Virus record (IMG/VR): IMGVR_UViG_3300009103_000163
Location: 1-23,178 of that record
DNA length: 23,178 nucleotides
Strand: one strand, 5' to 3'
Origin: a virus
Shown: positions 3,403-19,242 of the stretch, one piece after another
Layout of the letters: every line of letters starts with the position of its first letter
Position numbering within the stretch: position 1 is the stretch's first letter
Position numbers and translations under genes: made by a program
Notes under the pieces: model-generated
What the model was told of the DNA's origin: nothing
Database searches by the model: none
Seen by the model: the letters and a program-made list of their open reading frames with translations, nothing else

Positions 3403-3594
3403 ATGAGTGCAGTTGAATCAGTTCAAAACCTAATTGAAATTCTTACGGAGGCATTAGCTGATGCCGAAAAGCACAACCGAGGTGTTGATGCGGCGGGTGC
3501 AAGATTGCGAAAGAAGTTGCAATCTATTGTTAATGGATCGAAAGAACTTCGAAGCGAAGTGCAAGCAGAAAGAAATGCTCGAAAGAGTAAGTGA
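3403..3594 (+). CDS. histone H1-like (Hc1-type) small basic protein
   Basis: A 63-residue, very helical, lysine/arginine-rich protein with a strong ribosome binding site (AGGAGG, six bases from the ATG). The central segment DAAGARLRKKLQSI followed by KELRSEVQ resembles the AAG-x-R-x-RK-x-L and ELRKE-type core of bacterial Hc1/histone H1-like proteins. Those bind DNA and compact nucleoids in chlamydiae and occur in Bacteroidetes and some phages. A role in packing or shielding phage or host DNA is an inference. Its only control element appears to be the ACTATTTAT motif at 3362. The next gene has its own separate promoter. Confidence 0.6.
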   Translation: MSAVESVQNLIEILTEALADAEKHNRGVDAAGARLRKKLQSIVNGSKELRSEVQAERNARKSK

Positions 3595-3633: not shown

Positions 3634-4335
3634 ATGAAAGAAATTGACCTTATTAAGAAGAAGTTGCCAGAGATACGCGACAGGGGTTACATCCCGACTC
3701 TTCGAAAAGGAAACACTGGAGTTGGATATACTTTTGAGTGTCTTTTTGGCATTGAAGAGAATAACGATTCTGGGGCGGATCTCAATGGAAAAATCGAGTT
3801 CAAGGCTGGACGCAAAGGCAAAAGCTGTAGAACATCGAGTTTTACTCAAGCCCCCATATGGCATTACCAGATTAGGGATATTATCAAAAAATACGGAAAA
3901 CCCCATCCCGAGGATTCCGATAGAATTAATTGGTATCCCTCTTTGAGTAGCGACACTAATCCTTCAGGCTTAATTTTGTCTATAGTCGGGGAGGATCTGT
4001 TGATTCGAGATCAAAATGAAGATTTGACACTTGGAGAAATACCAATGGAAGTGCTTCGATATCGCTTCCGGCGTAAATTGGACAATCTTCTTCTCGTATA
4101 CGCCGATTCTATGATGGTCGGAAAAGCAGAACACTTTCATTACAATGAAGCCTACCTCTGTCAAACCCCCGATCTTAAAAAGATCAAACATCTTATCGAG
4201 GAAGACCGGCTAGTTGTGGAGCCTCGATGCCATTTGTATAAATCAACTGGCAAGGTTAGAGATCGCGGCGTGGCTTTCCGTATTAATGGAAAACATCTTC
4301 GAAGTTTGTACGAGCATGTAGAAAAGATTCTATGA
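3634..4335 (+). CDS. MvaI/BcnI-family restriction-type endonuclease
   Basis: A 233-residue protein matching the MvaI/BcnI family, which has a MutH-like PD-(D/E)XK fold and cuts short CC(N)GG-type sites. The family signature is clear: RGYIPTLRKGNTGVGYTFE at 17-35, LFGIEENND at 37-45, and an active site with D49, E55 and K57 (GADLNGKIEFK). BcnI and MvaI act as monomers of about 230-250 residues, so the length fits. No DNA methyltransferase is found in the window, so the gene is an orphan here. A phage nuclease of this kind could degrade host DNA while the phage genome is protected by modified bases, or could be a homing or nicking enzyme; that is inference. Transcription starts at the ATG from a strong host-type promoter, which suggests early expression. 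It overlaps the next gene by ATGA. Confidence 0.8.
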   Translation: MKEIDLIKKKLPEIRDRGYIPTLRKGNTGVGYTFECLFGIEENNDSGADLNGKIEFKAGRKGKSCRTSSFTQAPIWHYQIRDIIKKYGKPHPEDSDRINWYPSLSSDTNPSGLILSIVGEDLLIRDQNEDLTLGEIPMEVLRYRFRRKLDNLLLVYADSMMVGKAEHFHYNEAYLCQTPDLKKIKHLIEEDRLVVEPRCHLYKSTGKVRDRGVAFRINGKHLRSLYEHVEKIL

Positions 4336-5088: not shown

Positions 5089-5321
5089 GCAGTCAAGAGT
5101 GTAGAATATATGATCTGTTAGAATACAAGCTCAAAAGATACGTCGACTCTTTTCGCCAAGGCTCAGATGAATGGCATACTGCTATGCAAATATTGCTTTT
5201 GTATTTGGACGGAGAGGTGTCAATTAAGTGGTCCTCAGACATTATTTATGTGGTAGACAATAAGACTAATGATACGGCTCTAGTTGCCACTCCCGTTAGC
5301 GGGGCTAGCCCAATACACTAA
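5085..5321 (+). CDS. hypothetical protein
   Basis: Encodes 78 residues with an ATGA overlap to the preceding gene. The N-terminal half is helical and charged (DLLEYKLKRYVDSF), the middle hydrophobic (MQILLLYLDG), and the end contains short strand-like segments (SIKWSSDIIYVVDN). No known motif. It is the last gene of the coupled run from the nuclease onward. A 76-base gap with the ACTATTTAT motif follows. Confidence 0.6.
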   Translation: MSSQECRIYDLLEYKLKRYVDSFRQGSDEWHTAMQILLLYLDGEVSIKWSSDIIYVVDNKTNDTALVATPVSGASPIH

Positions 5322-5366
5322 TTTCAAAAAGCTTCCAATCACCATTCGCTTTTTCGCTTTTAAAGC

Positions 5367-5375
5367 ACTATTTAT
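5367..5375 (+). promoter_or_regulatory. ACTATTTAT motif, site B (candidate phage promoter)
   Basis: AGCACTATTTATA lies 22 bases before ATG 5398, at the head of the cassette array. It shares the 12-base AGCACTATTTAT with site A at 3360. Confidence 0.5.
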
Positions 5376-5397
5376 AAAGCCAGACGGAGGCACATAT

Positions 5398-5631
5398 ATG
5401 AGAGTTGCAAAAACAAGGCTCCGAAAGATTATTAAAGAATCGCTTAATGAGATGGGTTATGCTAGCTCTCATGAAGAAAAAGCTTGGGCGAAAGAGAGAG
5501 AGGAGTTTGCCGGCAACACCATCATGGATCTAGAAGCGCTCCACGATCAGTTGTATGGTCGCTTTACAGATGATGAAAATAAAATACTCGATCAAGCAAT
5601 TGCTCTATTGAATAGAGAAGCCGGGAGTTGA
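5398..5631 (+). CDS. cassette protein 1 with N-terminal IIKE leader
   Basis: A 77-residue protein; GGAGG lies seven bases before ATG 5398. Residues 1-16 (MRVAKTRLRKIIKESL) match the shared amphipathic leader of the array: a basic helix ending in I-I-K-E. The rest is acidic and helical, with no recognised domain (REEFAGNTIMDLEALHDQL, DENKILDQAIALL). In T4, internal head proteins carry an N-terminal capsid-targeting sequence cut after (L/I)-x-E; the I-K-E here fits that pattern. Packaging is an inference. Confidence 0.75.
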   Translation: MRVAKTRLRKIIKESLNEMGYASSHEEKAWAKEREEFAGNTIMDLEALHDQLYGRFTDDENKILDQAIALLNREAGS

Positions 5632-5633
5632 TT

Positions 5634-5918
5634 ATGAGAATTACAAAGAAACAGATTACAAAAATTATTAAGGAAGAGTTACGACTCGCTGCTGAGTCCA
5701 CTCAGGCTCAAGATGCAGAATTGCACACCCTTGTTGATAAGCTGATTGGAGCTTGGGGACCAGAAGAGGTCGCCAAAGAGTTGGAGGGATTAGCTCAAGA
5801 AATAAGGATGGATCATGGTTCAGCCGATACTTCGTCCGGCGGTGAGATAAATATACCAGAAGCTCCCCCAATTGGCTCTCAAACTCACCAGAGGCGCCGC
5901 TTTTATAAGAACCGCTAG
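5634..5918 (+). CDS. cassette protein 2 with N-terminal IIKEEL leader
   Basis: A 94-residue protein; ATG 5634 follows GGGAG by six bases and lies two bases past the stop of the previous gene. The leader MRITKKQITKIIKEEL is followed by an acidic helical domain (ELHTLVDKLIGAWGPEEVAKELEGLAQEI) and a low-complexity Pro/Ser/Gly tail ending in basic RRRFYKNR. Only the first 17 or so residues resemble the neighbours. Confidence 0.8.
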   Translation: MRITKKQITKIIKEELRLAAESTQAQDAELHTLVDKLIGAWGPEEVAKELEGLAQEIRMDHGSADTSSGGEINIPEAPPIGSQTHQRRRFYKNR

Positions 5919-5934
5919 AAGGAAAAAACATTAA

Positions 5935-6624
5935 ATGAAATTCACAAAGAAGCAGATTAGAAGAATTATCAAGGAAGAGTTGGGCGATCCCGAAGCCGAA
6001 GGGCGCCTTGAGCGCGCGAGGCAGGTAGGTCTAAGCCGGACTGCGCGTCTTAAAGCCCCCTCCAGTGTTGAAGAGGTTGAACTAATTGCAGATCTGATGG
6101 CAAATGATCCCGAATTTAGAATTCTAAGCCCTTTCGTTGATAAGTTTAAAAAATACGCCCAGAGTGGTGGCGCGGCTATGAGTTCTTTAGAGGCTGCATT
6201 ACCAGAATATATACCGGGAAGGTTAATCGCATCTCTTGCCACCAAAGCAAAAGAGGCAATGACAGGCAGCGAAACGCCTATCCCGCAGCCCAAGCCCGCC
6301 GCGTCCGCAGCAGATATGGAAAGGTGGGAAAGTGATTATCTCAATGAAGGGAAAAATTTAAACCTCACCACACAGAAACTAGCTCAAATTATTAAAGAGC
6401 AGATAGCTGAGGTTGAACAAATGACCCTTAACCAGTCAAGCGTTGACGCAGTATTAAACATGGCTAAGCAGATTGAGCCAATGTTTAATGCGTTTCGGAA
6501 GTCCGCAGGACAATCTGAAGTTGCCGCTAGTGATCCTCTTTATGAACAGATCGAGGATATATTGATGGAGCTGCCTTATCAGCTCGAAGAAATTGCTCAG
6601 AAGATGAAAAAAGGAGGTATCTAA
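5935..6624 (+). CDS. cassette protein 3, two leader motifs
   Basis: A 229-residue protein from ATG 5935 (AAGGA upstream). The leader is MKFTKKQIRRIIKEEL. A second copy, TTQKLAQIIKEQI, lies near residues 144-156, as if two cassettes had been fused in frame. Between them is a helical domain (SSVEEVELIADLMANDPEFRIL) and a proline/alanine linker (PIPQPKPAASAAD); after the second motif comes another helical domain (SVDAVLNMAKQIEPMFNAF). No enzymatic motif is visible. If I-x-E sites are cut on capsid maturation, this protein would yield two products. Confidence 0.8.
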   Translation: MKFTKKQIRRIIKEELGDPEAEGRLERARQVGLSRTARLKAPSSVEEVELIADLMANDPEFRILSPFVDKFKKYAQSGGAAMSSLEAALPEYIPGRLIASLATKAKEAMTGSETPIPQPKPAASAADMERWESDYLNEGKNLNLTTQKLAQIIKEQIAEVEQMTLNQSSVDAVLNMAKQIEPMFNAFRKSAGQSEVAASDPLYEQIEDILMELPYQLEEIAQKMKKGGI

Positions 6625-6734
6625 TGAAGAATTTTACTCATAAATTATGGAACTTGTTTAACAGCAAACATTGTTGCTGCTGTTGTGGCTGCTGCCCGTG
6701 TGAGAAGTGTTTGGGAGGGTGCAAACTCAAGTGA
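6624..6734 (+). CDS. very short cysteine-rich protein
   Basis: A 36-codon frame whose ATG (6624) overlaps the preceding stop and follows a near-perfect Shine-Dalgarno (AAGGAGGT at 6611-6618). Residues 1-16 are MKNFTHKLWNLFNSKH; then come 10 cysteines in 17 residues: five in a row (17-21), then a Gly, two more, Pro-Cys, Cys29 and Cys33, ending with basic KLK. This Cys density suggests metal binding (metallothionein-like or an Fe-S/zinc cluster) or palmitoylation-like membrane contact after the amphipathic start. No family is recognised. The last codons overlap the GTG start of the next gene. Confidence 0.7.
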   Translation: MKNFTHKLWNLFNSKHCCCCCGCCPCEKCLGGCKLK

Positions 6735-7261
6735 AAATCTCAGAAAAAAATCTAGTTCAGCTTATCAAAGAAGGGCTGCGAAGAGAAGCCCCAAAAAAAA
6801 CACGGCTCAAGAGGATTATCAAGGAAGAGTTAGTGGTTCTTGCTGAAAGGCAGCGACCGGGGCACAGAGATCCCGAAAGTGGAAACTGGCAATATCCCGG
6901 TGATCCCGGCTATGATCCACGTAGAGATGATTCTCTACATCCCGCAAAGAGCGACTACGGCTTGGGAGAGGAGGAGTATTCAAGGGCTCTTCGTGCTCAT
7001 CCTGAAGGTGGTCCAGTCGATCCAAACTGGGAGCATCCACTTGAACATCTGCTTGAAATACGCTCGGAGCGACACCCTCAAGGTCAAAAGGTCGCCACAG
7101 CCAAGGGTGGTATGAAACCATATGAGCAGGGTTATGAGGCAGGCACAAGAGGTGATCGGTCTGAGATGCCACTAGAGAAATACGGCACACCTTTTTACGA
7201 TGCTTGGATGAGTGGCTGGGACGACGGGTTAGCTCAATTCCACGGAGGGGGCAGTTACTAA
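6731..7261 (+). CDS. cassette protein 4, tandem leader motifs
   Basis: A 176-residue protein starting at GTG 6731, inside the stop of the Cys-rich gene (GTGA), with GGAGGG 11 bases upstream. Two leader copies are back to back: VKISEKNLVQLIKEGL and KKTRLKRIIKEELV (about residues 21-34). The rest is hydrophilic, rich in G, P, D, H and R (GHRDPESGNWQYPGDPGYD), with a C-terminal part YEQGYEAGTRGDRSEM then FYDAWMSGWDDGL, which resembles short Gly/aromatic segments of small phage and ribosome-modulation-factor-like proteins. The function is unknown. Confidence 0.75.
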   Translation: MKISEKNLVQLIKEGLRREAPKKTRLKRIIKEELVVLAERQRPGHRDPESGNWQYPGDPGYDPRRDDSLHPAKSDYGLGEEEYSRALRAHPEGGPVDPNWEHPLEHLLEIRSERHPQGQKVATAKGGMKPYEQGYEAGTRGDRSEMPLEKYGTPFYDAWMSGWDDGLAQFHGGGSY

Positions 7262-7494
7262 TGAAAATCACAAAGAAGCAGTTAACAACAATAATCAAAG
7301 AAGAGAGGGCGAAGGTCTTGAAGGAACAAAGAAAAGCCCCAGATGCTAGATGGTGGGAGCTTGCATTCGGCAATGTCATTGAAGACGAAGTGGGTTATGG
7401 CGAGGTAGACCCGGAAACAAATCGCAATATCCTTGCTGCTTTGCAGAATATGGTTAGAAATATTAAAGACGAACTCCGAGGAGACGTGAGGTGA
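7261..7494 (+). CDS. cassette protein 5 with N-terminal IIKEE leader
   Basis: A 77-residue protein; GGAGG precedes ATG 7261, which overlaps the previous stop. The leader is MKITKKQLTTIIKEERAKVL. The remainder is a helical acidic domain (RWWELAFGNVIEDEVGYGEVD, then NILAALQNMVRNIKDEL). The stop overlaps the next start (GTGA). Confidence 0.8.
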   Translation: MKITKKQLTTIIKEERAKVLKEQRKAPDARWWELAFGNVIEDEVGYGEVDPETNRNILAALQNMVRNIKDELRGDVR

Positions 7495-7748
7495 AAATCA
7501 CAAAAGCCCAACTAAAACAAATCATAAAAGAAGAACTTAGTCAAACCAAAGGTGCTCCGATCCCCGGTGCTTTGGATAGTGCTGACGCTTGGTATAACAA
7601 ATTTATGGAAATGATCAAAACAGAGTTTGACTCTAGTGGATGGTCCATGGCTGGTATCGGTTCTGAATTGCTTGAGGCAATTGAGAGACTACAGCGTCAA
7701 GTCAAGGATGAGGTCGCTGCTACGAGCAGAAAGGATTATAGAGAATGA
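7491..7748 (+). CDS. cassette protein 6 with N-terminal IIKEEL leader
   Basis: An 85-residue protein starting at GTG 7491 within the previous stop. The leader MKITKAQLKQIIKEEL is encoded by DNA almost identical to that of the next gene: only three differences in the first 44 bases. The rest is a helical domain (SADAWYNKFMEMIKTEFDSSG, then LLEAIERLQRQVKDEV) with no similarity to the next gene. The sharp switch from identity to no similarity points to recent leader shuffling. Confidence 0.8.
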   Translation: MKITKAQLKQIIKEELSQTKGAPIPGALDSADAWYNKFMEMIKTEFDSSGWSMAGIGSELLEAIERLQRQVKDEVAATSRKDYRE

Positions 7749-7981
7749 AAATCACAAAAGCACAACTAAAGCAAATCATAAAAGAAGAGATTGATGCCAA
7801 TGGTGGTGGAGGTTTGCCACGTACTCACAAAGGCGAAACAATCACGCCTCAAAGCGTCGCTGGTGAGCTGTTTAATTTAGCCGCCAAGGTAGAGGCTCTA
7901 GGTGAGGACTTCTTTTCCGATAGCGATAGTTTAGCCGACTGGGTTAATCAATTTATGGCTAAACACAACATCATGCAGTAA
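7745..7981 (+). CDS. cassette protein 7 with N-terminal IIKEE leader
   Basis: A 78-residue protein with an ATGA overlap to the previous gene. The leader MKITKAQLKQIIKEEI equals that of cassette 6 apart from the last residue. The body has a glycine-rich linker (NGGGGLP) and a helical domain (SVAGELFNLAAKVEALGEDFFSD, then LADWVNQFMAKHN). Unknown function. Confidence 0.8.
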   Translation: MKITKAQLKQIIKEEIDANGGGGLPRTHKGETITPQSVAGELFNLAAKVEALGEDFFSDSDSLADWVNQFMAKHNIMQ

Positions 7982-7994
7982 AAGGAGCATTAAA

Positions 7995-8276
7995 GTGAAT
8001 ATTACCAAAGAACAACTTAAGAAAATTATCAAAGAAGAATTATTGAGAGAGGGTGAAGGCGATCCGGTTACTCTGCCTGCCGACGTGGTTTTCTCGCATA
8101 CCAAAGAGACGCAGCAAATTGAGTGGCTTCTTGAAAAAGACCCAGAGGCTCTGCCAGAAGCTCTAGAGCGTTTGAAGAAAGCTAACATGAAATTTTTTAA
8201 TGCAGTGATGGCAAGCAAGGGGCAGTACGCGCCTGAGCACAGCCAAGAATACACTGGTGGCAGAGGCGGACACTAA
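7995..8276 (+). CDS. cassette protein 8 with N-terminal IIKEEL leader
   Basis: A 93-residue protein starting at GTG 7995, preceded by AAAGGAG. The leader is MNITKEQLKKIIKEELLREG. The body is helical (TKETQQIEWLLEKDPEALPEA, then LERLKKANMKFFNAVMASK) and ends in a glycine/histidine tail (TGGRGGH). No known domain. Confidence 0.8.
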   Translation: MNITKEQLKKIIKEELLREGEGDPVTLPADVVFSHTKETQQIEWLLEKDPEALPEALERLKKANMKFFNAVMASKGQYAPEHSQEYTGGRGGH

Positions 8277-8277
8277 A

Positions 8278-8598
8278 ATGAACAAGGCACGCTTAAAGAA
8301 GATCATCAAAGAAGAACTTCTCAAGGAAATGATGTTCTCTGATGCGGATGCCAGACAGTATTTGACCGATCGGGCGGATAAATATCGACGTCAAGGTCTT
8401 GAAGGCATGGAAATAAAAATGCTGCTGCAAGACGATTTTATGGATGATCTTGGACACTTGCTTGATATTGCAGATTACGAAGATTTAATCGATCAATTGT
8501 CACAGCCTGCCCAAGAGCCCTCAAGCTTGCCGCGCAAGCCGATGACTCCCGACCGTCGACTGCGGAGGCTCAGTGCATTGGCAGAGAGTTCAAAATGA
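8278..8598 (+). CDS. cassette protein 9 with N-terminal IIKEEL leader
   Basis: A 106-residue protein; I prefer ATG 8278, just after the previous stop, because it places the leader MNKARLKKIIKEELLKEM at the N-terminus. The body is a helical domain (DADARQYLTDRADKYRRQGLEGMEIK, cut here) with an acidic LLDIADYEDLIDQL segment and a proline-rich basic tail (PSSLPRKPMTPDRRLRRL). It overlaps the next gene by ATGA. Confidence 0.78.
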   Translation: MNKARLKKIIKEELLKEMMFSDADARQYLTDRADKYRRQGLEGMEIKMLLQDDFMDDLGHLLDIADYEDLIDQLSQPAQEPSSLPRKPMTPDRRLRRLSALAESSK

Positions 8599-9182
8599 AC
8601 AAGACACGTTTAAAAAAAATCATTAGAGAAGAACTTCTTCGGGAAGCCCAATGGGGCAATTTCACTGGTGGAGCCGCGCCGCTGGACGAACCAGCGAGCG
8701 AGGGCGGCTCAATCCCAAAGGAACAGTTAAAGAAACTTTGGGACATATTCACTGACATGGGGAAGACCCCAGAAGAAATTTTGGCAACACCAGAGTTCAA
8801 AGAGGCGGGAATTCAAGATCCATCTCAACTGCACGAAGCAGTTTTAAAAAAAATCATCTTAGAGGAGCTACAAGAGGCTTGCGGAATTCAACCCTCACCT
8901 TCGCCCGTGGAGCCCTCTAAAGACCATTCTATGAGCCCTCAAGAGGGCGAGAGCCGGATGGCAAAGGGCAACCTTTGGCATCTGACTCAAGATGCTGCCG
9001 AGTTGTATGATCTGATGGGCAATAACGTGGATTTGCCCGAATGGGTCGAAGCAAAATTGACAAAAGCTGCCGATTATGTTTCCATGGTTAGGAAATATCT
9101 TTCTTATAAAGACGTCGAAGGCGCAATTCCTCAAGATCCAGAAGTTGCCATGATGGGCACGCTGGATGAATATGAGTCGTGA
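8595..9182 (+). CDS. cassette protein 10, two leader motifs plus conserved helical domain
   Basis: A 195-residue protein. The first leader is MNKTRLKKIIREELLREAQ; a second copy, EAVLKKIILEELQEACG, lies near residues 79-95, again suggesting two fused cassettes. Between them is a short helical domain (PKEQLKKLWDIFTDMGKTPEE, cut here). The C-terminal part (about 122-175) begins RMAKGNLWHLTQDAAELYDL and continues LPEWVEAKLTKAADYVSMV. A domain of this form (M-A-x-x-x-L-x-x-x-x-x-x-A-x-E-L, then L-P-x-W-V-x-x-K-x-x-K-A) is, to my recollection, common in marine phage proteins that also bear the IIKEE leader. The function is unknown. Confidence 0.8.
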   Translation: MNKTRLKKIIREELLREAQWGNFTGGAAPLDEPASEGGSIPKEQLKKLWDIFTDMGKTPEEILATPEFKEAGIQDPSQLHEAVLKKIILEELQEACGIQPSPSPVEPSKDHSMSPQEGESRMAKGNLWHLTQDAAELYDLMGNNVDLPEWVEAKLTKAADYVSMVRKYLSYKDVEGAIPQDPEVAMMGTLDEYES

Positions 9183-9545: not shown

Positions 9546-9574
9546 AAAAAGCCTAGCATTAGCTAGGCTTTTTT
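9546..9574 (+). terminator. rho-independent terminator
   Basis: Stem GCCTAGC (9551-9557), loop ATTA, stem GCTAGGC (9562-9568), then six T; the A-run before the stem extends pairing. It separates the gene at 9275 from the tubulin operon and would work partly in both directions. Confidence 0.9.
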
Positions 9575-9601: not shown

Positions 9602-9610
9602 ACTATTTAT
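9602..9610 (+). promoter_or_regulatory. ACTATTTAT motif, site C (candidate phage promoter)
   Basis: The motif sits 27 bases after a terminator and 22 bases before the ATG of the tubulin-like gene. Since the terminator should stop upstream transcription, a promoter is needed here, and no TTGACA element is visible. This is the best-supported of the ACTATTTAT sites. Confidence 0.6.
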
Positions 9611-9632
9611 AGTGTTTAGGAGGGCTTATATT

Positions 9633-10691
9633 ATGAGTGACGAAAACGATTTTAGTGATGATTTTGATTTTGTAGATCATTACGGTTCAGATGAGGCAGA
9701 GGCTAGTGAGGACGCACTGCCAGAAAATGAAGCAATTAGTGCAATTAATTGTGGTTTTATTGGAGTTGGTGGAGGAGGCGGAAAGCTAGTTAAAGCTTTT
9801 ATTGACTTAGGGTTCAATAAATCTCTTCTTGTCAATACGACTGAAAAAGATCAGCCTGATGGTGTAGATGATTCCCACTTGGTTTTAATTCCAGATGCAG
9901 ACGGTGTAGGAAAGGATGTTGTTTATGGCAAAAAAGTGCTTAAAGACAACAGCGCCGTGGTGGAAGATGCCCTCAGAACGAAGCTTGGTAAGGTAGACTG
10001 GCTCTTTATCTTCGCTGGAGGTGGTGGTGGCACTGGTAGTGCTAGTGGGGCATTACATGACGTTTTTGAGCGTTATTTAAAATCCATTGAAGCCGACGGC
10101 TCTGTGGTGTATGTGGTCACGGTGCCTTCTGCTCAGGAGTCTTTAAATGACACCATTAAGAGCAATGCAAACACTTTGCTGGGTGATGTTGAGGGCAAGC
10201 CTCACATTGTCCTGAGCAATGAGAAACAACTTCAACTCTTGCGCGGGAAAGTCGGAATATTGAACATGTATTCACTAGCGAACAAGACTTTTGCCAAATT
10301 GTTTCACCAAATTTTAAAGTTGGCAGCAGAGCACTCACCAATCCAAACATTTGACTCGAAAGACTTGGACAGTTGTCTCAAAACTGACGGTAGAATGTTT
10401 TTGGGTTCTACAGTGGTGAAGGATCCTTCGATTCCACGACTAGGAGCGACAATCCTACAGAACTGCCTAAAGAGATCTCCCTGTCCACAACCAAGAGGCA
10501 AGGGGGACGCGGGTTCTCTCTTGTTGGTAATCACCCCAGAAATGGCAGACGATCCTGATATCAGCAAAGGACTGGAAGCTGCTATTTCTTATGTAGGTTC
10601 TCGAACCGGCACTCTATTTTCGGGAGTGTATGTAAGGGATAATCTACCGGGCTTGATTGCAATCATGACAATGAGCGGAGTCGACTGGTAA
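9633..10691 (+). CDS. FtsZ/tubulin-like GTPase
   Basis: A 352-residue protein; AGGAGGG precedes ATG 9633 (a GTG at 9612 is in frame but lies within the promoter motif). Residues 1-35 are an acidic extension. GTPase motifs follow: T1 loop GVGGGGGK at 44-51, LLVNTTEKD at 65-73 in place of the FtsZ NTDAQ segment, and the tubulin signature GGGGGTGSASGA at 129-140. VVYVVTVPS (158-166) matches the strand before T5, and FDSKDL at 240-245 supplies Asp241 and Asp244 in the T7 loop region that completes the GTPase site of the neighbouring subunit. The C-terminal domain is complete (LLLVITPEM, LIAIMTMSG), but the FtsZ C-terminal tail for FtsA/ZipA is absent. It probably forms filaments; phage tubulins such as PhuZ centre and segregate phage DNA. 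It heads the long operon. Confidence 0.85.
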   Translation: MSDENDFSDDFDFVDHYGSDEAEASEDALPENEAISAINCGFIGVGGGGGKLVKAFIDLGFNKSLLVNTTEKDQPDGVDDSHLVLIPDADGVGKDVVYGKKVLKDNSAVVEDALRTKLGKVDWLFIFAGGGGGTGSASGALHDVFERYLKSIEADGSVVYVVTVPSAQESLNDTIKSNANTLLGDVEGKPHIVLSNEKQLQLLRGKVGILNMYSLANKTFAKLFHQILKLAAEHSPIQTFDSKDLDSCLKTDGRMFLGSTVVKDPSIPRLGATILQNCLKRSPCPQPRGKGDAGSLLLVITPEMADDPDISKGLEAAISYVGSRTGTLFSGVYVRDNLPGLIAIMTMSGVDW

Positions 10692-10694
10692 TAT

Positions 10695-13600
10695 ATGAAA
10701 GTCAATTTTGAAATTAAGAATCTAAGCGACGTGGATATCAGTTCTTTTAAGAAGATCTTAGAGGAACTGATTCCTTTTGTGCAAGATCGTTTAGGTTATG
10801 ATAAGCCAGTTAAGGTGCTTTTCATTTCAGATCCAGAGAACGCAATAAATGTTCTTGGAAAGACGGCACACTATGCTCCCGACACACACACTGTTACGAT
10901 CTATGTTGATAATAGGCACCCAAAGGATATGTTAAGAAGTGTGGCGCACGAATTGGTGCATCATGCACAAAATTGTAGAGGCGAATTTGATGGTGGGTGC
11001 TCAACTGAAGCGGGCTATGCACAGACAGACGCGCACTTAAGAGACATGGAGAGGGAGGCATACGAGAAAGGAAACTTGTGCTTTCGAGATTTTGAGGACC
11101 AGCTTAAGACTAACAAAAAAAAACAAACTATTTATATTAACGTCATGAAAGAAGGTCTCAAACCAAAGTATATTAAAGAAGGTTTTAGCGATAGTACGCT
11201 TTGCCGAGGCAATTGTAAATCTGAAGCAGAAGCTGGTGCTTACTGTGGTAAAGTCGGGGTCTCGCTGGCTGAAAGCGGCAGACATAAGCTAAGTCGGGAG
11301 AGGATAAGGGAAATTGTAAAAAAAGCTTTACAAGAGAGAACACAGGTTACATGTGAGTTCGGTGGACCTAATCAAGTCATTCCTGAAGCAACTGCAACGG
11401 AAACGGCTTCTGCGATTGGTCAGGCGGCTTTCGGAGGAGATCACACGGAGCCCGATGCTCCATATCAAAAAATTTGTGTAAAAGGAGGGGGCTTTTCTCC
11501 ACTGGGAGAGTCACTAAATAAAGGAACTAAAATTATGAATAAAAAAAATAAACTGGGTCTAACTTCTCTATATGAGGGATGGGACAAATTCTTACAAGAG
11601 GCTGGTCGACCACATAGTATGCGTGGTGGTAGGACCATGGCAGATCTCGACCGCGAGGCGAAGATGAGAGAAACGGATCCTCGCTCTATCGGGCTATCTA
11701 CCAAAATCAACAAAGAGTTTCCTGATGCGATTGTAAAGCAGCAGGGCGACGAACTGGTTGTTGTGCTTGGCGACCCAAGTGATGTGGTTGCGCTACAGCA
11801 AGACCCAGACATGCAGCGGTGGATGAGCGATGAAATCGGTGATTGGGCGGCAACAGATGATGGGTTTGTTGTTTCGCTACAAGGCGGTTTGAACGAATCT
11901 GGTTGGGGTGAGGACGAGTACATGGATGTGCTTGAAGACGAATTTCCATGGCTAGCTAAATCTGTGCAGTCTCAGGAAATTCCCGCCGAAGTAGCTGTGC
12001 AACTGGCAAAGGAATACGGCTCAGAGGAGGAGACCGAGGAGCAAATGAATGAGTGGGGTGGAAGACCCTATGATCCAACCGTTCCCGGCGATTTCCAACG
12101 CTATCGAGACAACCCGACCGGCGATGCTGAGTATCCCATGACAGCAAAGCAAGAACGAAAATTTCAAGTTGGCGATCAGGTTAGGGTGGTCGACGGTGGG
12201 CTTCGCGGAGCAACAGGAGAAATTATTGAACCAATTACACTTGTAACTGGAGAGTCGGGGTTTGTTATCCTTCTAGATTCGCCAGCCGATAAGAAAGTTT
12301 TTGGTCAAGCGGGTGATGAGGTTCCTGTCGCCGCTGACAAGCTAGCCCCACCAATGAGTGCTATTAACGAAGAAGACCCGTCCAACGACAATGAGGAGGA
12401 TACCATGACCACAACACAAGTTAGCAAAAGAGCAGTTTTAGAGGCTGTTATTCGTAAATCTCTAATTGGTGAGAACATCGACCTTGAGCAGTTTCCAAAT
12501 CCGCTTCCAACCAATCAAGGTGGTGAAACCTTTCTCTCAAAAGGACTTAGGGATGGTGATAAGGGGGATGATAGGGTCGAAGCCGGACCAAAATCCCTCG
12601 CCGCTGCGGCGGCGAAGCCATCACAAAGTGCGATTTATCTCGGCAAGGCATTGGGAATGGCTATGGGGCCTATGGGTGATGGAGGAAACTTAAAGGCGAT
12701 TATTTCCGCAGATGGCTATATTCTTGATGGTCATCATCGATGGGCGGCAACCATGTTTAATAATCCCGGTGCAGACGTGGGAGGCACTGGAATTGAAATG
12801 AACATGCAGGAACTAATTCCAATTCTGCGCGCGGCGGGTGATGCTTATGGAAATGATCGGCGTGGTGAGCCATCAGGCGGAGACAAGAATATTTTCAAGG
12901 CAACAATTAAAGATGTAGTTGCAACCTTGAAAGTACTCAACAAGGGCACTGAGCATAATTCCCCCGGTGATGCGAAAAAGTGGCTAGACGAGATTGGTGG
13001 TATCGACGTGCTGGAGAAACGACTCGCCGCAATCAAGGCGAAGGGTGCTGATGTATCCGCTGCGCCAGCAAGAGCAGAAATGCCGGTGATTGATGCAGAT
13101 AAGGGAGAAGATCAGAATATTGCAACAAGATTAAAGAAGGGCGCAATTGATATCAAGCCTCCATATACGGAACTACCAGATGATAAGAAAAAAGATGATA
13201 GTAAACCCATACATCTCGAAAATTTGAATGAGTATCGGGAGGATTATGGGAAAGTCGACACGGGGAACCCCTTAGAAGATAAGAAGCAAGAATTCAATGC
13301 AAAATGGATGTACTATAATGAAGAGTGGCGGCACATGGATCCTGACGAAGAGGAGTGGTGGAATAGCGCCCTTGACGCGCTTTCGAAAGAGATTAAAGCC
13401 ATGGAAGGTGGTGTTGACCAACACGCTCACCTTCGCACGGGAGGGCTCACCGAGCGCCGACAAAAGCGACGCCATAACGAAAGATATGGTCTCTTAATGG
13501 AGCGAATGCTTGGAATTCAGAATTTAAGCCCGATCGGAACCATGGAGAGTCGGACAAATTGGCTTTTTGAAGAGGAGGAAGAGGAGGGGTCAGATCCACA

Positions 13601-13739
13601 CGCATATTGTCCCGAAGAAAGCTATCTTTCTGCACAAGAAGCAGAAAAGGAGAAAGAAAAGAGTGAAAATTCGGGAAATTGGTCAGATTCTGAGATCGAT
13701 AAACTAGCAAAACATTCAAAAGATTCAAAAAATGGTTGA
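10695..13739 (+). CDS. multidomain virion-associated-like protein: HExxH peptidase, SH3-like and ParB-like domains
   Basis: A 1014-codon frame three bases after the tubulin stop. Residues 1-130 are a zinc metallopeptidase domain: HELVH at 85-89, and EREAY (119-123) offers the third ligand. A lysine-rich linker follows (about 139-146). Residues 164-215 contain a Cys-containing segment and a leader-like helix (LSRERIREIVKKALQE). Residues 281-303 (KLGLTSLYEGWDKFLQEAG) are another helix of that kind. Residues about 488-553 begin KFQVGDQVRVVDGGLRGATG, an SH3-like domain. Residues 571-590 (MTTTQVSKRAVLEAVIRKSL) form a further leader-like helix, and residues about 640-735 are a ParB/sulfiredoxin-like domain with YILDGHHRWAA around 678. 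The C-terminus is acidic and helical. Internal ATGs with plausible ribosome sites (11145, 11535, 12405) coincide with the leader-like helices, so this may be several genes fused or read in frame. Confidence 0.75.
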   Translation: MKVNFEIKNLSDVDISSFKKILEELIPFVQDRLGYDKPVKVLFISDPENAINVLGKTAHYAPDTHTVTIYVDNRHPKDMLRSVAHELVHHAQNCRGEFDGGCSTEAGYAQTDAHLRDMEREAYEKGNLCFRDFEDQLKTNKKKQTIYINVMKEGLKPKYIKEGFSDSTLCRGNCKSEAEAGAYCGKVGVSLAESGRHKLSRERIREIVKKALQERTQVTCEFGGPNQVIPEATATETASAIGQAAFGGDHTEPDAPYQKICVKGGGFSPLGESLNKGTKIMNKKNKLGLTSLYEGWDKFLQEAGRPHSMRGGRTMADLDREAKMRETDPRSIGLSTKINKEFPDAIVKQQGDELVVVLGDPSDVVALQQDPDMQRWMSDEIGDWAATDDGFVVSLQGGLNESGWGEDEYMDVLEDEFPWLAKSVQSQEIPAEVAVQLAKEYGSEEETEEQMNEWGGRPYDPTVPGDFQRYRDNPTGDAEYPMTAKQERKFQVGDQVRVVDGGLRGATGEIIEPITLVTGESGFVILLDSPADKKVFGQAGDEVPVAADKLAPPMSAINEEDPSNDNEEDTMTTTQVSKRAVLEAVIRKSLIGENIDLEQFPNPLPTNQGGETFLSKGLRDGDKGDDRVEAGPKSLAAAAAKPSQSAIYLGKALGMAMGPMGDGGNLKAIISADGYILDGHHRWAATMFNNPGADVGGTGIEMNMQELIPILRAAGDAYGNDRRGEPSGGDKNIFKATIKDVVATLKVLNKGTEHNSPGDAKKWLDEIGGIDVLEKRLAAIKAKGADVSAAPARAEMPVIDADKGEDQNIATRLKKGAIDIKPPYTELPDDKKKDDSKPIHLENLNEYREDYGKVDTGNPLEDKKQEFNAKWMYYNEEWRHMDPDEEEWWNSALDALSKEIKAMEGGVDQHAHLRTGGLTERRQKRRHNERYGLLMERMLGIQNLSPIGTMESRTNWLFEEEEEEGSDPHAYCPEESYLSAQEAEKEKEKSENSGNWSDSEIDKLAKHSKDSKNG
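11127..11135 (+). promoter_or_regulatory. ACTATTTAT motif inside a reading frame (site D)
   Basis: The exact 9-mer lies 10 bases before the in-frame ATG at 11145 and directly after a run of nine A. It may be an internal promoter or a relic of an intergenic gap between two genes now read as one. Confidence 0.35.
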
Positions 13740-14064
13740 TTTAGATAAAATTACAAGAAATTTCGCCCGAAGTTGTCTTCTCCGAGAGGATGTGGATAGA
13801 GCCGAGTTGGATATAGAGCTGTTAATGGAAAGCAATTTGTTTGAGGCTGGATTAATGAGTGCTCAAATTCAATCTGTGCTAGAAGTTATGGAAAATGTCC
13901 GCCTAACCTCCAATCGAGATAGAAATCGTATGGCGCTGGCTAAAGAAAATATGAAAAAAGTCCGCAGACACGTCAAAAAGATTGAAGAGCGCGTGGTGAT
14001 GCTCCAAGAACAGGTTTCCTTGCTTGAGGAGGGCTCAAAAAAGGAAAAAGACGAGGGAGAATAA
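13732..14064 (+). CDS. small coiled-coil protein
   Basis: A 110-residue helical protein whose ATG overlaps the end of the preceding frame by eight bases. The N-terminal half (RNFARSCLLREDVDRAELDI, then LLMESNLFEAGLM) is helical and acidic. The C-terminal half (NMKKVRRHVKKIEERVVMLQ, then EQVSLLEEG) is a clear heptad coiled coil. The tail is charged (SKKEKDEGE). Its place between two large multidomain proteins suggests a structural or scaffold part. No family recognised. Confidence 0.75.
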   Translation: MVDLDKITRNFARSCLLREDVDRAELDIELLMESNLFEAGLMSAQIQSVLEVMENVRLTSNRDRNRMALAKENMKKVRRHVKKIEERVVMLQEQVSLLEEGSKKEKDEGE

Positions 14065-14066
14065 CA

Positions 14067-16178
14067 ATGTCGACACGCCCTGTGATTCTAGAAGGTGGTT
14101 TGGGTGGTCATATGGACCATCTTTATGAAAATCCAAACCTCACGTTCGGGGAAATGAAAGAGATTTTTCGTCTTGCCGCCTCGGGAGAACTTGAGGGCAC
14201 TCAAAAAGTCGATGGACAGAACATTTTTCTCTCTTATTCTCTTACAAGAGGTCATGCAATTGCTGCGCGCAATAAAACCCACCTTAAAGCCGGCGGGATG
14301 AATGCCCAAGAACTTGCAAACTTCTTTAAAGGCAGGGATGCGCTTCAAAAAGCCTTTGTCGATGGATTTCGGGCTTTTGAAGAGGCTGTTGCTTCGTTTT
14401 CCGATGAAGAAATTGTTGGCGCTTTCGGGCGAGATGGAGAAATCTACTATAGTGCCGAAGTAATTGAACCTGCCAACGCAAATGTTATTGATTACGACGA
14501 ACAGGTCTTAAATATCCATCGCAGTGGTCATGGAGAGGTTGAGCGAGAAACAGCAAACGTTGTTGCTTCGGATAAAGACCCAAAAATGCAGAAATCCTCT
14601 GCTATTCTCGACGCGGCGATCTCAAAAATAGAAAATACTAAGCAATCTAACAATTTTAGAGTTCAAAGGGGCTCAATTGAGAAGCTTAAGTCTGTTTTAG
14701 ATGGAAAACATGCTGAAGAAGCCATTTCGAGGTTAGAAGCCATCGTCGGGGGAGATTCTGAGACAGTAGGCGAGTTTGTTGTGAAAAAGCTTAAGCCAGT
14801 TGTCCAAAAGGGCGTAAAATTACCCAAAGACAAACAAAATATGTTAATTCAGAAAATGTTGGGCTCAAAGGGAATAAATAAAAGAGAAATCAAGAAAGGA
14901 CTGGACGAGGAGGGGCAAAAAGCAGTTGAACAACTACTCTCGCAGAGTAAAACGATTTTAAAAACAATAATAAAGCCGATAGAGCTAGTGGTACACGATT
15001 TTGCTGTCGATGCGCTTCAAGGGATGCAAAGCATTTTTATGCTTGGCGCTCAGGAACCCAAAGTGCAGAAATTAAGGGACAAAGTTGCTGCTGAAATTCA
15101 ATCGATCGAAGCCAGTGGAGACGAAGCCAACATGGCAAAGCTAAAATCTCAACTTGAGAAAATGAAGTATGCAGAAAGAGGTTTAGAAGGCATCACGACG
15201 GCTGCCGAGGGCTTTGTTTTTGATTTTAACGGACACACTTATAAGCTTACTGGCAACTATGCCCCAATCAATCAAATTTTGGGCATACTTAGATATAAGA
15301 GGGGTGGGAAAGAGGAAGTAAATGAATCTCTTGCTCGGGGGTCTGGTATTGCTCTTGTTCCCGGTGGTTTTAAGCCCCCTCACGCTGGACATTACGAGTT
15401 GGCGGCATGGGCTGGTTCCCAGCCGGGAGTAGATAAGGCAATTGTGCTGGTTTCTCCTCTAGAGAGAGACACAGTTGACGTCGCACAATCATTAGCCATA
15501 TGGGAGATTTACAAATCTCTTGGCGGAAACTTTGAAGTAGAAGAAAGCGGCGTAAATTCTCCAGTTGGCGCAGCATATGAATACGTTGACAACAAGGCTC
15601 GACCGGGCGATACGATTTATGTAATTAAAGGAGAGAAGGACCGTGGAGATAAAAGATTCCAAGATATGCGCGGTCGGAAAGAAGGTGTTGAAGTGAAAGA
15701 ACTGGTTTCACCAACTTTTGCAGGTGGTGTTAGCGGCACAGTAATGAGAAGTTATATCAAAAAAGGTGATGTAAAGAGTTTTCAAGCCGCTTTGCCTGCC
15801 GGTCTTGATCAATCCTCCAAAGATAAGGCTTGGGAAGTTGTTTCTAGCGGAAATATCAACCTGCAAGAGTATTTAAAGCTAGTTATTAATGAAGTTTTAG
15901 AGGCAATGCCGAATGCCCCTAGAGATTTTGGAAGACTCGCGGTAGCGGCTCTTGATGGTGAAGAATTGACTCAAAACGTGAGGGCTATTGAAAAAAACGC
16001 CCATATGGGCTTTGGGGCTATTGAGGAAGAAGTGGATGAAATAGAAACAATTGAAGAGGTTTCTGCGATGGGCATGGTAGGTGGTGGTTCTATAGAGGGC
16101 GGAGCAAAGAGCCCATGGACTGACTTTAGTGAAGCTGACAATGAAAAACAAAAACCGGGAGAAAATAATGGAATATAA
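14067..16178 (+). CDS. bifunctional-looking nucleotidyltransferase: KxDG ligase-like domain plus HxGH adenylyl/cytidylyltransferase domain
   Basis: A 703-residue protein with GAGGGAGA before its ATG. The N-terminal part has the motif order of the covalent nucleotidyltransferase (DNA/RNA ligase) superfamily: motif I KVDG at 47-50, a GEIYYSAEV strand at 124-132 in the place of motif III, EGFVF at 381-385 for motif IV and YKLTG at 392-396 for motif V. A long helical insert (about 160-375) separates III from IV, which is unusual. Residues about 422-575 form a class I nucleotidyltransferase domain: GIALVPGGFKPPHAGHYELA with HAGH at 439-442, and SGTVMR at 556-561 in the place of the ISSTxIR motif of NMN adenylyltransferases. 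A leader-like helix LKLVINEVLEAM follows, then an acidic tail ending EEVSAMGMVGGGSIEGGA. Substrates are unknown; tRNA/RNA repair or NAD metabolism are possible. Confidence 0.75.
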   Translation: MSTRPVILEGGLGGHMDHLYENPNLTFGEMKEIFRLAASGELEGTQKVDGQNIFLSYSLTRGHAIAARNKTHLKAGGMNAQELANFFKGRDALQKAFVDGFRAFEEAVASFSDEEIVGAFGRDGEIYYSAEVIEPANANVIDYDEQVLNIHRSGHGEVERETANVVASDKDPKMQKSSAILDAAISKIENTKQSNNFRVQRGSIEKLKSVLDGKHAEEAISRLEAIVGGDSETVGEFVVKKLKPVVQKGVKLPKDKQNMLIQKMLGSKGINKREIKKGLDEEGQKAVEQLLSQSKTILKTIIKPIELVVHDFAVDALQGMQSIFMLGAQEPKVQKLRDKVAAEIQSIEASGDEANMAKLKSQLEKMKYAERGLEGITTAAEGFVFDFNGHTYKLTGNYAPINQILGILRYKRGGKEEVNESLARGSGIALVPGGFKPPHAGHYELAAWAGSQPGVDKAIVLVSPLERDTVDVAQSLAIWEIYKSLGGNFEVEESGVNSPVGAAYEYVDNKARPGDTIYVIKGEKDRGDKRFQDMRGRKEGVEVKELVSPTFAGGVSGTVMRSYIKKGDVKSFQAALPAGLDQSSKDKAWEVVSSGNINLQEYLKLVINEVLEAMPNAPRDFGRLAVAALDGEELTQNVRAIEKNAHMGFGAIEEEVDEIETIEEVSAMGMVGGGSIEGGAKSPWTDFSEADNEKQKPGENNGI

Positions 16179-17163
16179 GACTTACTCTAGAAAAGATCTG
16201 CTTGAAGAGGTGCTTTTGCGTGAAAATATCCGTAAAGTGCTCGGTACCGTCTTGGAAGAAAGAAGGCAAAAAGAGCAAAAAACGTGGTATCTCCGCGAGC
16301 TTATTAAAGAACTGTTATTGGAAGCTGATACAGAGGTTGCACCGCACGAGTCGACAGGAATTAATGTTCTAGAAGATCTCCTGAAGAAGATTGTTCCGCA
16401 AGTTGAACAAGACTTCAAAACACTTACCACCAGCAAAGAACAAAGAGACTCTTTTCGTGCTCATATTCTAAATGCTACAGAAAATTCAATTGCTCCGATG
16501 TCTGCCTTGAGGGATGAAGGCGAGGGCGAGGGGGAACTAGAAGACCTCGATGCCTTACAGGAGGCAGATCCGAATGATGCTCATGAAGTTGCGTCGGACT
16601 TGCCGACACCATCGACCGGCGATCAATATGGAAGAGGTGAGTATCCTTTTGGTCGACCACCAGCGACGCCTCAAGGAAATTTCGAATTAGAAGAGGATAT
16701 CGAAGTTAGTGTAGGGGCTTCTGACGGTGAGGAGGAGCGAGATATTGGCGATATCGCTTCTTTGGATGATGACGAAAAGATGATCGATATTGGTAATGTG
16801 GGCGGTCCACAGAGTGATGATGAATCTTTCGAAGGATTGGCAGGTCAGGATGATACCGGTCGTAATATCGCAAATATGAGTTTTAAGAAGATTGAAAAAA
16901 GCATTGTTGACTCTTATCAGCTTCTCGGCGATACGAAAGATCAGGATCTCTTTAGAGATTATCTGTTAACAAATTTAAAATTATATTTTGATAAATTTGA
17001 GGATGAGCTTGGCGCCGGGGCAGAGACAGAGCCCACTAATGATGAATATCAAAAAGAAAAGGAGAAGGCACCAGAAACAGAGGAGCCGGGTGCAGAAGAA
17101 CCAGAGGGTGGCGAAGAGGGTGAAGAAGAGGGGGAAGAGGGAGAATTAGAGTTGGAGCTATAA
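16168..17163 (+). CDS. very acidic helical protein, possible scaffold or internal head protein
   Basis: A 331-residue protein; GGGAGA precedes ATG 16168, which lies inside the end of the previous gene (an in-frame ATG at 16129 is less likely). The N-terminus has two leader-like helices (DLLEEVLLRENIRKVLG and YLRELIKELLLEAD), each with I/L-x-E sites. Residues about 120-230 are a disordered acidic region rich in D, E, G, with repeated DIG(D/N) units (DIGDIASLDDDEKMIDIGN). Residues about 240-295 are a folded helical segment (NMSFKKIEKSIVDSYQLLGD, cut here). The last 35 residues are almost only E, G and P. Composition and position suggest a DNA-mimic, scaffold or virion protein. Confidence 0.75.
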   Translation: MEYKTYSRKDLLEEVLLRENIRKVLGTVLEERRQKEQKTWYLRELIKELLLEADTEVAPHESTGINVLEDLLKKIVPQVEQDFKTLTTSKEQRDSFRAHILNATENSIAPMSALRDEGEGEGELEDLDALQEADPNDAHEVASDLPTPSTGDQYGRGEYPFGRPPATPQGNFELEEDIEVSVGASDGEEERDIGDIASLDDDEKMIDIGNVGGPQSDDESFEGLAGQDDTGRNIANMSFKKIEKSIVDSYQLLGDTKDQDLFRDYLLTNLKLYFDKFEDELGAGAETEPTNDEYQKEKEKAPETEEPGAEEPEGGEEGEEEGEEGELELEL

Positions 17164-17164
17164 T

Positions 17165-17488
17165 ATGAAAGAACACAGCCTCCTCAGAAAGTATAAGCGG
17201 GATGGCGTGATCGACGACCGCTTTGAGTCTCAAATGAGCAAAATATCTTTAGAGGACTTAATATCACTTAAATTGGAAATTGCCGCGAAAGCAGTAAAGG
17301 GAAAAATGTATGGATTTCCAATCTATTTTGCATTACCAGAAATATCTAGGGAAGCAGCATTTAAGTGGGCGTGCTCAATAAGCGAAACCAAGACAAATGC
17401 CGCTAGATTGCTCGGTATATCCCTATCAAGGTTCAATCAGGTTTACAAGAAGTTGAATATTGAAGAATTTTTTAAGAAAAGTACTTGA
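17165..17488 (+). CDS. small protein with Fis-type helix-turn-helix
   Basis: A 107-residue protein starting one base after the previous stop. Residues 75-98 (TKTNAARLLGISLSRFNQVY, then KKLNI) match the C-terminal HTH of Fis and NtrC-type activators, in which N-x-x-x-A-A-x-x-L-G-I-S is typical. The N-terminal 70 residues (KISLEDLISLKLEIAAKAV, then GKMYGFPIYFALPEI) are not Fis-like and look like a dimerisation or partner-binding module. It may bind DNA and act as a late regulator, being last in the long operon. I recall similar HTH proteins in marine T4-like phages. Confidence 0.7.
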   Translation: MKEHSLLRKYKRDGVIDDRFESQMSKISLEDLISLKLEIAAKAVKGKMYGFPIYFALPEISREAAFKWACSISETKTNAARLLGISLSRFNQVYKKLNIEEFFKKST

Positions 17489-17656: not shown

Positions 17657-17964
17657 GGGGACGAAATGGTTTCGACAGTGTGTTGAGAAATATTCGTGCA
17701 AGGCTGTGTGAGTGTGGCACAGTAAAAACACTCAACCTTTTAAACGCCAACGACAACGTTGAGTTTGATTACGCCTTAGCTGCTTAATCACGGGGTGGCA
17801 GCAACCTTGTTAACCAAAGCTGCAATCTAAGTTTCCAGTTTCTTTAAAGAGCTGGTGGTGCGCGGTGTGGGAAGTTTGTCAGAGTTCATAAACTGACTAA
17901 CCTTGTGAATGACGAATATTTGGAAGCATATTGGACCGGGGTTCGACTCCCCGCGTCTCCACCA
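17657..17964 (+). ncRNA. ssrA: tmRNA (transfer-messenger RNA)
   Basis: About 308 bases. The 5' end GGGGACG pairs with CGTCTCC before the ACCA at the 3' end (one G-U pair), making the tRNA-like acceptor stem. The conserved 5' GGTTTCGAC and the 3' T arm (CGGGG, TTCGACT, CCCCG) are both present, and the CCA is encoded. The reading frame inside starts with GCC at 17746 and ends TAA at 17785-17787, giving the tag ANDNVEFDYALAA. The ALAA end is the form read by ClpX. It is a one-piece tmRNA, shorter than E. coli's (about 363), so it probably has fewer or shorter pseudoknots. It rescues stalled ribosomes and marks the product for proteolysis. Only five bases separate it from tRNA-Asn, so they are probably one transcript. 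No clear promoter is seen. Confidence 0.95.
17746..17787 (+). other. tmRNA tag reading frame
   Basis: Resume codon GCC, then 12 codons and TAA. The peptide ANDNVEFDYALAA begins AND like many proteobacterial tags and ends YALAA like that of E. coli (ANDENYALAA), with three extra residues in the middle. Confidence 0.9.
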
Positions 17965-17969
17965 CTTTT

Positions 17970-18042
17970 TGCGGCGTAGCTCAGTTGGCAGAGCAGATGG
18001 CTGTTAACCATCGGGTCGCTGGTTCGAGCCCAGCCGCCGCAG
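17970..18042 (+). tRNA. tRNA-Asn (GUU)
   Basis: Seven-base acceptor stem TGCGGCG/CGCCGCA with discriminator G, D arm GCTC/GAGC, anticodon stem GATGG/CCATC with loop CTGTTAA (anticodon GTT), T arm GCTGG/CCAGC. U1-A72 and G73 also occur in E. coli tRNA-Asn. CCA is not encoded, unlike the other three tRNAs here. Confidence 0.93.
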
Positions 18043-18058
18043 TTTTCTCTAAAAACTC

Positions 18059-18110: not shown

Positions 18111-18350
18111 ATGAGCGAAGAGAATATTGACCCGTCATTTGGTAAGTCGTGGGAAAATGCATTTACCTATAAGACTTTTAAGGCTGCCGATGAAAAGAGA
18201 AATAAAATTTTAGAGTCTGGCAAGAAACAAGTAAAAGTGAAACGTCGTAGTGATGGCGCTTTTGTTGTCAAAACAAGAAATATTACTATCGAAACTCCCA
18301 AGAAGACAAAAAAAGCAAAGAAGCAAAAACGGGGTAACAATGAGGGATAA
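18111..18350 (+). CDS. small basic protein
   Basis: A 79-residue protein; AGGAGGT lies five bases before the ATG. Residues 12-55 (SWENAFTYKTFKAADEKRNK, then ILESGKKQVKVKRRSDGAFV) look like a small alpha/beta unit, and the last 25 residues are mostly K, R, T (PKKTKKAKKQKRG), likely nucleic-acid or membrane-lipid contacting. It overlaps clpP by 11 bases, so the two may be coupled. No family recognised. Confidence 0.7.
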   Translation: MSEENIDPSFGKSWENAFTYKTFKAADEKRNKILESGKKQVKVKRRSDGAFVVKTRNITIETPKKTKKAKKQKRGNNEG

Positions 18351-18991: not shown

Positions 18992-19067
18992 GCGCCCTTA
19001 GCTCAGAGGTTAGAGCGCGGCTCTTATAAGGTCGTAGTCGCGGGTTCAAATCCCGCAGGGCGTACCA
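18992..19067 (+). tRNA. tRNA-Ile (UAU)
   Basis: Acceptor GCGCCCT/AGGGCGT (G1-U72 wobble), D arm GCTC/GAGC, anticodon stem CGGCT/GGTCG with loop CTTATAA, T arm GCGGG/CCCGC, ACCA encoded. The anticodon TAT (19025-19027) reads AUA, a job most bacteria give to a lysidine-modified CAU tRNA. Confidence 0.92.
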
Positions 19068-19073
19068 TATTTT

Positions 19074-19160
19074 GGCACTGTGGCGGAATTGGTATACGCA
19101 ACAGACTTAAAATCTGTCGCCCTTTCGGGATTGAGGGTTCGAGTCCCTCCAGTGCTACCA
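19074..19160 (+). tRNA. tRNA-Leu (UAA)
   Basis: 87 bases, with the long variable arm of class II tRNAs (GCCCTTTCGGGAT). Acceptor GGCACTG/CAGTGCT, anticodon stem ACAGA/TCTGT with TAA at 19108-19110, T arm GAGGG/CCCTC, and encoded ACCA. Reads UUA. Confidence 0.93.
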
Positions 19161-19165
19161 AACAT

Positions 19166-19242
<77 letters not shown>

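Follow-up and report, generated by a model that had tools for sequence, protein, structure and literature searches.

Evidence for a distinct family of tubulin-like GTPases in large T4-type phages

Proteins of the tubulin/FtsZ superfamily are known as FtsZ in bacteria, as CetZ in archaea, as TubZ on Bacillus plasmids and in Clostridium phage c-st, and as PhuZ in the Chimalliviridae (phiKZ, 201phi2-1, PhiPA3 and RAY). In this superfamily, the catalytic T7 acids of one subunit supply the missing part of the next subunit's active site. A survey of marine jumbo phages reported no tubulin outside the phiKZ-like group (PMC9123017). A survey of tailed phages lists tubulin as a distinguishing function of the Chimalliviridae, a handful of large phages elsewhere also having one (PMC11835377). 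Two FtsZ/tubulin representatives have been counted in jumbo phages (PMC7824862). Here we analyse a further tubulin-like gene, called TUB below, and we found no earlier description of its family in the open-access literature. The stretch analysed, referred to as the window, is an entire IMG/VR virus record (IMGVR_UViG_3300009103_000163) of 23,178 bases. An earlier note on this DNA had read the gene as an FtsZ/tubulin-like GTPase at the head of an operon, possibly belonging to a separate group of phage tubulins.

Behind a terminator-like stem, TUB comes first in a run of co-directional ORFs that extends to 17488 with gaps of 1-3 nt or overlaps, so its position at the head of an operon is confirmed. 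The features of this region are as follows.

9546..9573, unstranded: terminator-like stem of 12 pairs with a 4-nt loop and a T run on both sides, parting TUB from the upstream gene
9603..9611, plus strand: CTATTTATA, a candidate late promoter motif, found at this site
9618..9623, plus strand: AGGAGG Shine-Dalgarno site, 9 nt before the ATG, read from the sequence
9633..10691, plus strand: TUB, a 352-aa GTPase of the tubulin/FtsZ superfamily (stop-free ORF, Pfam, conservation, AF2, structure match, tree and alignment)
9633..9746, plus strand: acidic, disordered N-terminal arm of TUB, residues 1-38, with DFDFVDHY at 10-17 (pLDDT <70 at residues 1-30; motif in relatives)
10695..13739, plus strand: 1014-aa multidomain protein with a HELVHH metalloprotease-like N-terminus and KOW-like and ParB-like stretches (weak domain calls)
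13732..14064, plus strand: 110-aa protein with no assigned function, overlapping the previous gene (ORF)
14067..16178, plus strand: 703-aa protein with a cytidylyltransferase-like part and relatives in Microcystis phage Mel-JY01 and Flavobacterium phage immuto
16168..17163, plus strand: acidic protein of about 331 aa, overlapping the previous gene (start codon chosen by us)
17165..17488, plus strand: 107-aa protein, the last ORF of the tight run, which adjoins TUB in other loci too

An alternative GTG start for TUB is possible at 9612; the AGGAGG at 9618-9623 led us to take the ATG at 9633. In 25 of 59 relatives (L025, L029, L036, L058 and others) the longest TUB frame opens with M-(A/P)-(S/C)-(S/T/G), a start that is rare among the other ORFs of these loci and is perhaps a longer form of the protein with its own N-terminal signal. 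Within the large operon proteins (10695-17163, plus strand), short amphipathic segments (for example SRERIREIVKKALQER, KRAVLEAVIRKSLIGE, LRELIKELLLEA) recur that are similar to the starts of the small upstream ORFs described below, as if domains were joined by targeting or cleavage segments of that type.

The motif upstream of TUB is a candidate late promoter, judged from its distribution before genes. Upstream of 865 ORFs of TUB loci there are 27 copies of CTATTTAT and a single copy of its reverse complement; for TATTTATA the two counts are 15 and 0. In a looser form, the pattern precedes TUB most often (18 times) and turns up ahead of neck, PhoH and sheath genes as well; because the motif was first noticed in TUB upstream regions, the strand bias is the control, not the count at TUB. 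The exact T4 late promoter, TATAAATA, is absent from the window and from the coding strand before the 865 ORFs. Identity with the T4 promoter was rejected, since the strand-biased motif TATTTATA is the reverse complement of the T4 sequence and hence a different motif.

Several signals converge on the assignment of the protein. Pfam Tubulin (PF00091) matches TUB at E 1.9e-7 with 32 bits, the curated cut-off being 33 bits, and 43 of the 44 relatives scanned match at E 0.01 or better; a profile built from 44 relatives retrieves FtsZ from the PDB at E 7e-10. Scores at or just under the Pfam cut-off make the family easy to miss. The AF2 model (pLDDT 91, pTM 0.88) has the full two-domain tubulin fold with a central helix (residues 209-232), low confidence being restricted to the N-terminal arm, and the structural aligner relates it to CetZ, TubZ and FtsZ with Z 27-32 over about 290-310 residues at 17-23% identity. 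Given the Pfam value, its recurrence among the relatives, the PDB match and the model confidence, the assignment is not due to chance.

The GTP-binding site is complete. The T1 loop reads GVGGGGGK (residues 44-51) and the T4 loop GGGGGTGS (129-136). In an alignment with FtsZ, CetZ, TubZ and PhuZ, the T7 acids D241 and D244 correspond to D209 and D212 of E. coli FtsZ, and N196 pairs with N165. Across 44 relatives that are about 60-85% identical, the GTP-site and T7 columns do not vary, which bears out the earlier reading of T1, T4 and T7 aspartates. The acidic N-terminal extension and the missing FtsZ-type C-terminal tail, both noticed earlier, also hold for the family as a whole. In a non-redundant set (59 of the first 81 TUB sequences, window included, at a 92% identity limit), the median net charge of the 40 residues preceding the domain is -11, and the extension contains F(D/G)FVxxY in 57 of 59. 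TUB itself ends at the last strand with no tail beyond it, and at most 18 residues separate the start of that strand from the end of the protein across the 59.

Purifying selection on TUB is strong: dN/dS is about 0.02 and 0.05 in two close pairs; dS is saturated between the window TUB and its nearest relative. Taken with the conserved site, such low values are as expected of a working GTPase in which the site is completed by the next subunit, and we consider it very probable that TUB polymerises head to tail.

The earlier note had offered branching within the FtsZ of one bacterial group as the sign of a recently acquired host gene. We built a tree from 18 TUB members, seven FtsZ, seven PhuZ, two CetZ and one TubZ-like sequence. 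All TUB members form a single clade (98/93), and FtsZ (100/99), PhuZ (100/100) and CetZ (100/99) each stand apart, although the deep branching order is unreliable given the long branches and the representation of TubZ by one long-branched TubZ-like sequence. The T1 loop, GVGGGGG, is FtsZ-like, as it would be in a recently captured host ftsZ. However, TUB lies outside all seven FtsZ, among them the FtsZ of the Flavobacteriales and Halobacteriovorax MAGs into which TUB contigs were binned, and the C-terminal linker and tail are missing. A clade of its own beside FtsZ, CetZ and PhuZ indicates that TUB is not a captured host gene; on the tree and the missing tail we reject this origin, to which we assign a negligible probability. 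A product acting on host FtsZ is a separate matter. TUB could hinder division, either co-assembling with FtsZ or displacing the Z ring, and the infected cell would then grow on and yield more phage; it has an FtsZ fold with intact polymerisation residues, and many phages block division by means of small proteins. Yet an identity of about 18-20% to FtsZ makes co-assembly unlikely, a poison would not need strictly conserved catalytic acids, TUB has no FtsZ-type tail with which to bind division partners, and the head-gene neighbourhood described below points elsewhere. We regard division inhibition as unlikely, and favour a filament that serves the phage itself.

The family is large. A first scan of IMG/VR gave 107 relatives and a profile scan about 360, with some redundancy, identity to TUB being 59% or more among the IMG/VR matches listed. 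No credible tblastn match was obtained among 50,697 GenBank phage records or among 72,556 plasmid records. The longest carrier contigs measure 293, 281 and 267 kb, and the gene is present in one copy per contig in 12 of 12 large contigs. The T4-type capsid family phrog_138 was detected in 15 of 20 carrier records, including all ten largest (125-293 kb). A chimallin profile that recovered the phiKZ positive control at E 1.8e-232 matched 0 of 16 carrier contigs, which may be incomplete and in which a very divergent shell protein could escape. A nucleus-forming phage was rejected on this negative result, and the T4-type capsid together with the lack of a detectable chimallin indicates that the carriers are not nucleus-forming, phiKZ-type phages. 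The separate clade, the want of relatives in the GenBank phage records searched and the T4-type genomes without detectable chimallin support the view that TUB is a distinct phage tubulin family, as the earlier note had suspected from the sequence.

TUB is not universal in this capsid group. Among 21 further contigs with related capsid genes, many of them fragments, only one carries TUB, and those lacking it include a contig of 273 kb; head assembly in the group thus does not require it. By capsid, the nearest isolates are Flavobacterium phage immuto and Microcystis phage Mel-JY01, with 44-46% identity across the aligned part; in neither does Pfam or the family profile find a tubulin. Two proteins encoded downstream of TUB in the window's operon have homologues there, both in immuto and one in Mel-JY01. 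Five TUB matches lie on MAG-binned contigs, four assigned to Flavobacteriales or Flavobacteriaceae and one to Halobacteriovorax. The carriers are large uncultured T4-type myoviruses, apparently from the sea, the marine origin being taken from MAG names, not sample metadata, and the bins and the capsid relative immuto point to Bacteroidota as hosts. Bacteroidota rarely use Shine-Dalgarno sites. Such sites precede about half of the ORFs in TUB loci (394 of 821), unlike in immuto (1 of 10 genes), which places the Bacteroidota host in doubt.

The earlier note had also linked the operon to possible virion proteins. The relatives make this link stronger than the note could see: of 85 non-redundant loci, each 8 kb or longer, 41 have T4-type virion genes within 10 kb of TUB, with a capsid gene in 28, and these counts are lower bounds because loci stop at contig ends. 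In the window itself the proteins downstream of TUB are only possible virion proteins, and it belongs to the roughly half of loci with no recognised virion gene at that distance. At least four arrangements were observed.

L036 type: capsid, TUB, neck protein, and on to the tail sheath
L002 type: terminase, portal, TUB, protease, and on to the capsid
L117 and L120 type: protease, TUB, scaffold, capsid
L021 type: TUB about 6 kb before the terminase

Other loci adjoin PrkA-SpoVR and a GroEL-like gene (9) or PhoH (11). PrkA kinase, SpoVR and GroEL-like genes, known from bacterial stress and sporulation, lie a few kb from TUB in L054, L055, L057, L071, L073, L077, L084 and L121; the L057 contig (G001) also carries two tandem T4-type capsid paralogues at 176341-180096. 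The most frequent single neighbour reaches at most 21 of 59 loci, so that no constant partner is seen. Gene-order classes agree with the TUB tree, needing 9 changes where shuffled labels need 28, and across 15 genomes the identity of TUB goes with that of the capsid protein (Mantel r 0.755, with 0 of 2000 permutations as high). It follows that TUB has been inherited with the genome, near the head module in many lineages.

Upstream of TUB in the window (5284-9182, plus strand), about ten consecutive small ORFs open with variants of MKITKxQLKxIIKEEL. Near the N-terminus, this pattern occurs 24 times in 1101 ORFs of the loci, against 1 after shuffling. In T4, capsid targeting sequences are cut by gp21 after (I/L)-X-E (PMC9026906), and the starts seen here resemble them in position and in the I-K-E step. 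By this analogy the ORFs are possibly an array of capsid-targeted internal proteins. Their proximity, as well as the location of TUB within the head module in many relatives, would suit a TUB carried inside or on the virion, with its action there or after ejection. We give this reading a low probability: the N-terminus of TUB is an acidic arm and not capsid-targeting-like, and the fully kept nucleotide site and T7 loop point to an enzyme or a filament.

The window holds other genes of interest. Left of TUB on the plus strand are a peptide deformylase (251-829), a 63-aa histone H1-like Hc1 protein (3403-3594; Pfam E 2.6e-11) and an MvaI/BcnI-type restriction endonuclease (3634-4335; Pfam E 6.6e-36) with no methyltransferase seen beside the gene. 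To the right, also on the plus strand, come a phage-borne tmRNA with the tag ANDNVEFDYALAA and tRNAs Asn, Ile(tat), Leu(taa) and Arg(tct) (17657-18043 and 18992-19242), a ClpP-like (head maturation) protease (18328-18984) and a PIN-PhoH protein (20333-21640). The sole large minus-strand gene of the right half (19509-20234) encodes a secreted or lipoprotein trypsin-like protease with a signal peptide and GSSGSP, and its homologues lie on the strand opposite TUB in several relatives. A 24-nt unit is repeated in 2.2 copies with 100% match inside an ORF (22997-23049).

What could such a protein do in a T4-type infection? We propose that TUB, a predicted active GTPase, would assemble head to tail late in infection, giving dynamic filaments which may place or move proheads or the phage DNA pool and so bring capsids and DNA together for packaging. 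The acidic arm with DFDFVxxY may contact a partner or a neighbouring filament and would then do the job of the C-terminal tails of FtsZ, TubZ and PhuZ. This proposal is drawn from the fold and the high structural similarity to the polymerising CetZ, TubZ and FtsZ, from the invariant GTP-site and T7 acids, the dN/dS values and the separate clade, from the T4-type capsid and lack of a detectable chimallin, and from the virion genes within 10 kb, the tracking of the capsid and the late-promoter-like motif. Against it stand the loci with no nearby virion gene, the lack of a constant partner and the single carrier among the 21 further contigs. We hold the balance to be about even for the placing or moving of proheads or DNA late in infection, and a GTP-driven filament made late and positioning them has, as a whole, an equal chance of being right or wrong. 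It is somewhat more doubtful that this T4-type lineage has its own nucleus-free tubulin cytoskeleton, apart from PhuZ, with filaments that work in head assembly or genome packaging.

Among known tubulins, the archaeal CetZ are the top structural match (CetZ2, Z 32.4, 23% identity), but the two CetZ sequences form a clade separate from TUB, which is phage-encoded. Bacterial FtsZ (Z 27-29, the highest being 28.8) has the T1, T4 and T7 motifs in common with TUB and differs by its separate clade and by the linker and C-terminal peptide that TUB lacks. The top viral structure match, A0A6J5RW92, annotated 'FtsZ Cell division GTPase' from an uncultured Caudovirales phage, reaches E 1.2e-21; compared by structure match alone, this protein of 452 residues is 17% identical to TUB. 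TubZ ranks alongside CetZ (Z 32.3, for a Bacillus TubZ, and 29.2), and the T3 and T7 loops of the TubZ-like plasmid protein resemble those of TUB (DGVGKD/EGVGKE and TFDSKDL/TLDRKDL). A TubZ-type motor that segregates a plasmid-like phage genome during pseudolysogeny would fit this likeness. Identity to TubZ is 17-21% and TUB is without a C-terminal extension. No TubR-like gene, iteron array or constant small neighbour is seen beside TUB, although a divergent TubR or a distant site could escape, and a TubZ operon was rejected for want of the iterons and the small neighbour. T4-type virion genes neighbour TUB in many relatives, and T4-type phages are typically lytic. A partition motor is accordingly improbable in our estimation.

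PhuZ is a natural comparison for the proposed filament. TUB and PhuZ are both tubulin-superfamily GTPases of large phages with myovirus tails that keep the T7 acids, and both are patchy in occurrence; PhuZ is missing from a third of Chimalliviridae (PMC10299810). They differ in that PhuZ ranks under other tubulins in structure matches to TUB, the PHROG PhuZ profile gives only weak matches, and the acidic arm is N-terminal in TUB and C-terminal in PhuZ. Unlike PhuZ, TUB would work without a chimallin nucleus: its family, on about 360 contigs with some redundancy, belongs to T4-type phages in which no chimallin is detectable. That these phages have a well-conserved tubulin-like protein of their own, often encoded beside capsid genes, points to cytoskeleton use in a second phage lineage, in this case probably for building or placing virus particles. 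If TUB polymerises, a phage tubulin cytoskeleton needs no phage nucleus and exists in a second lineage, and a comparison of PhuZ with TUB would make the purpose of viral tubulins, whether DNA placement, capsid traffic or both, a testable matter.
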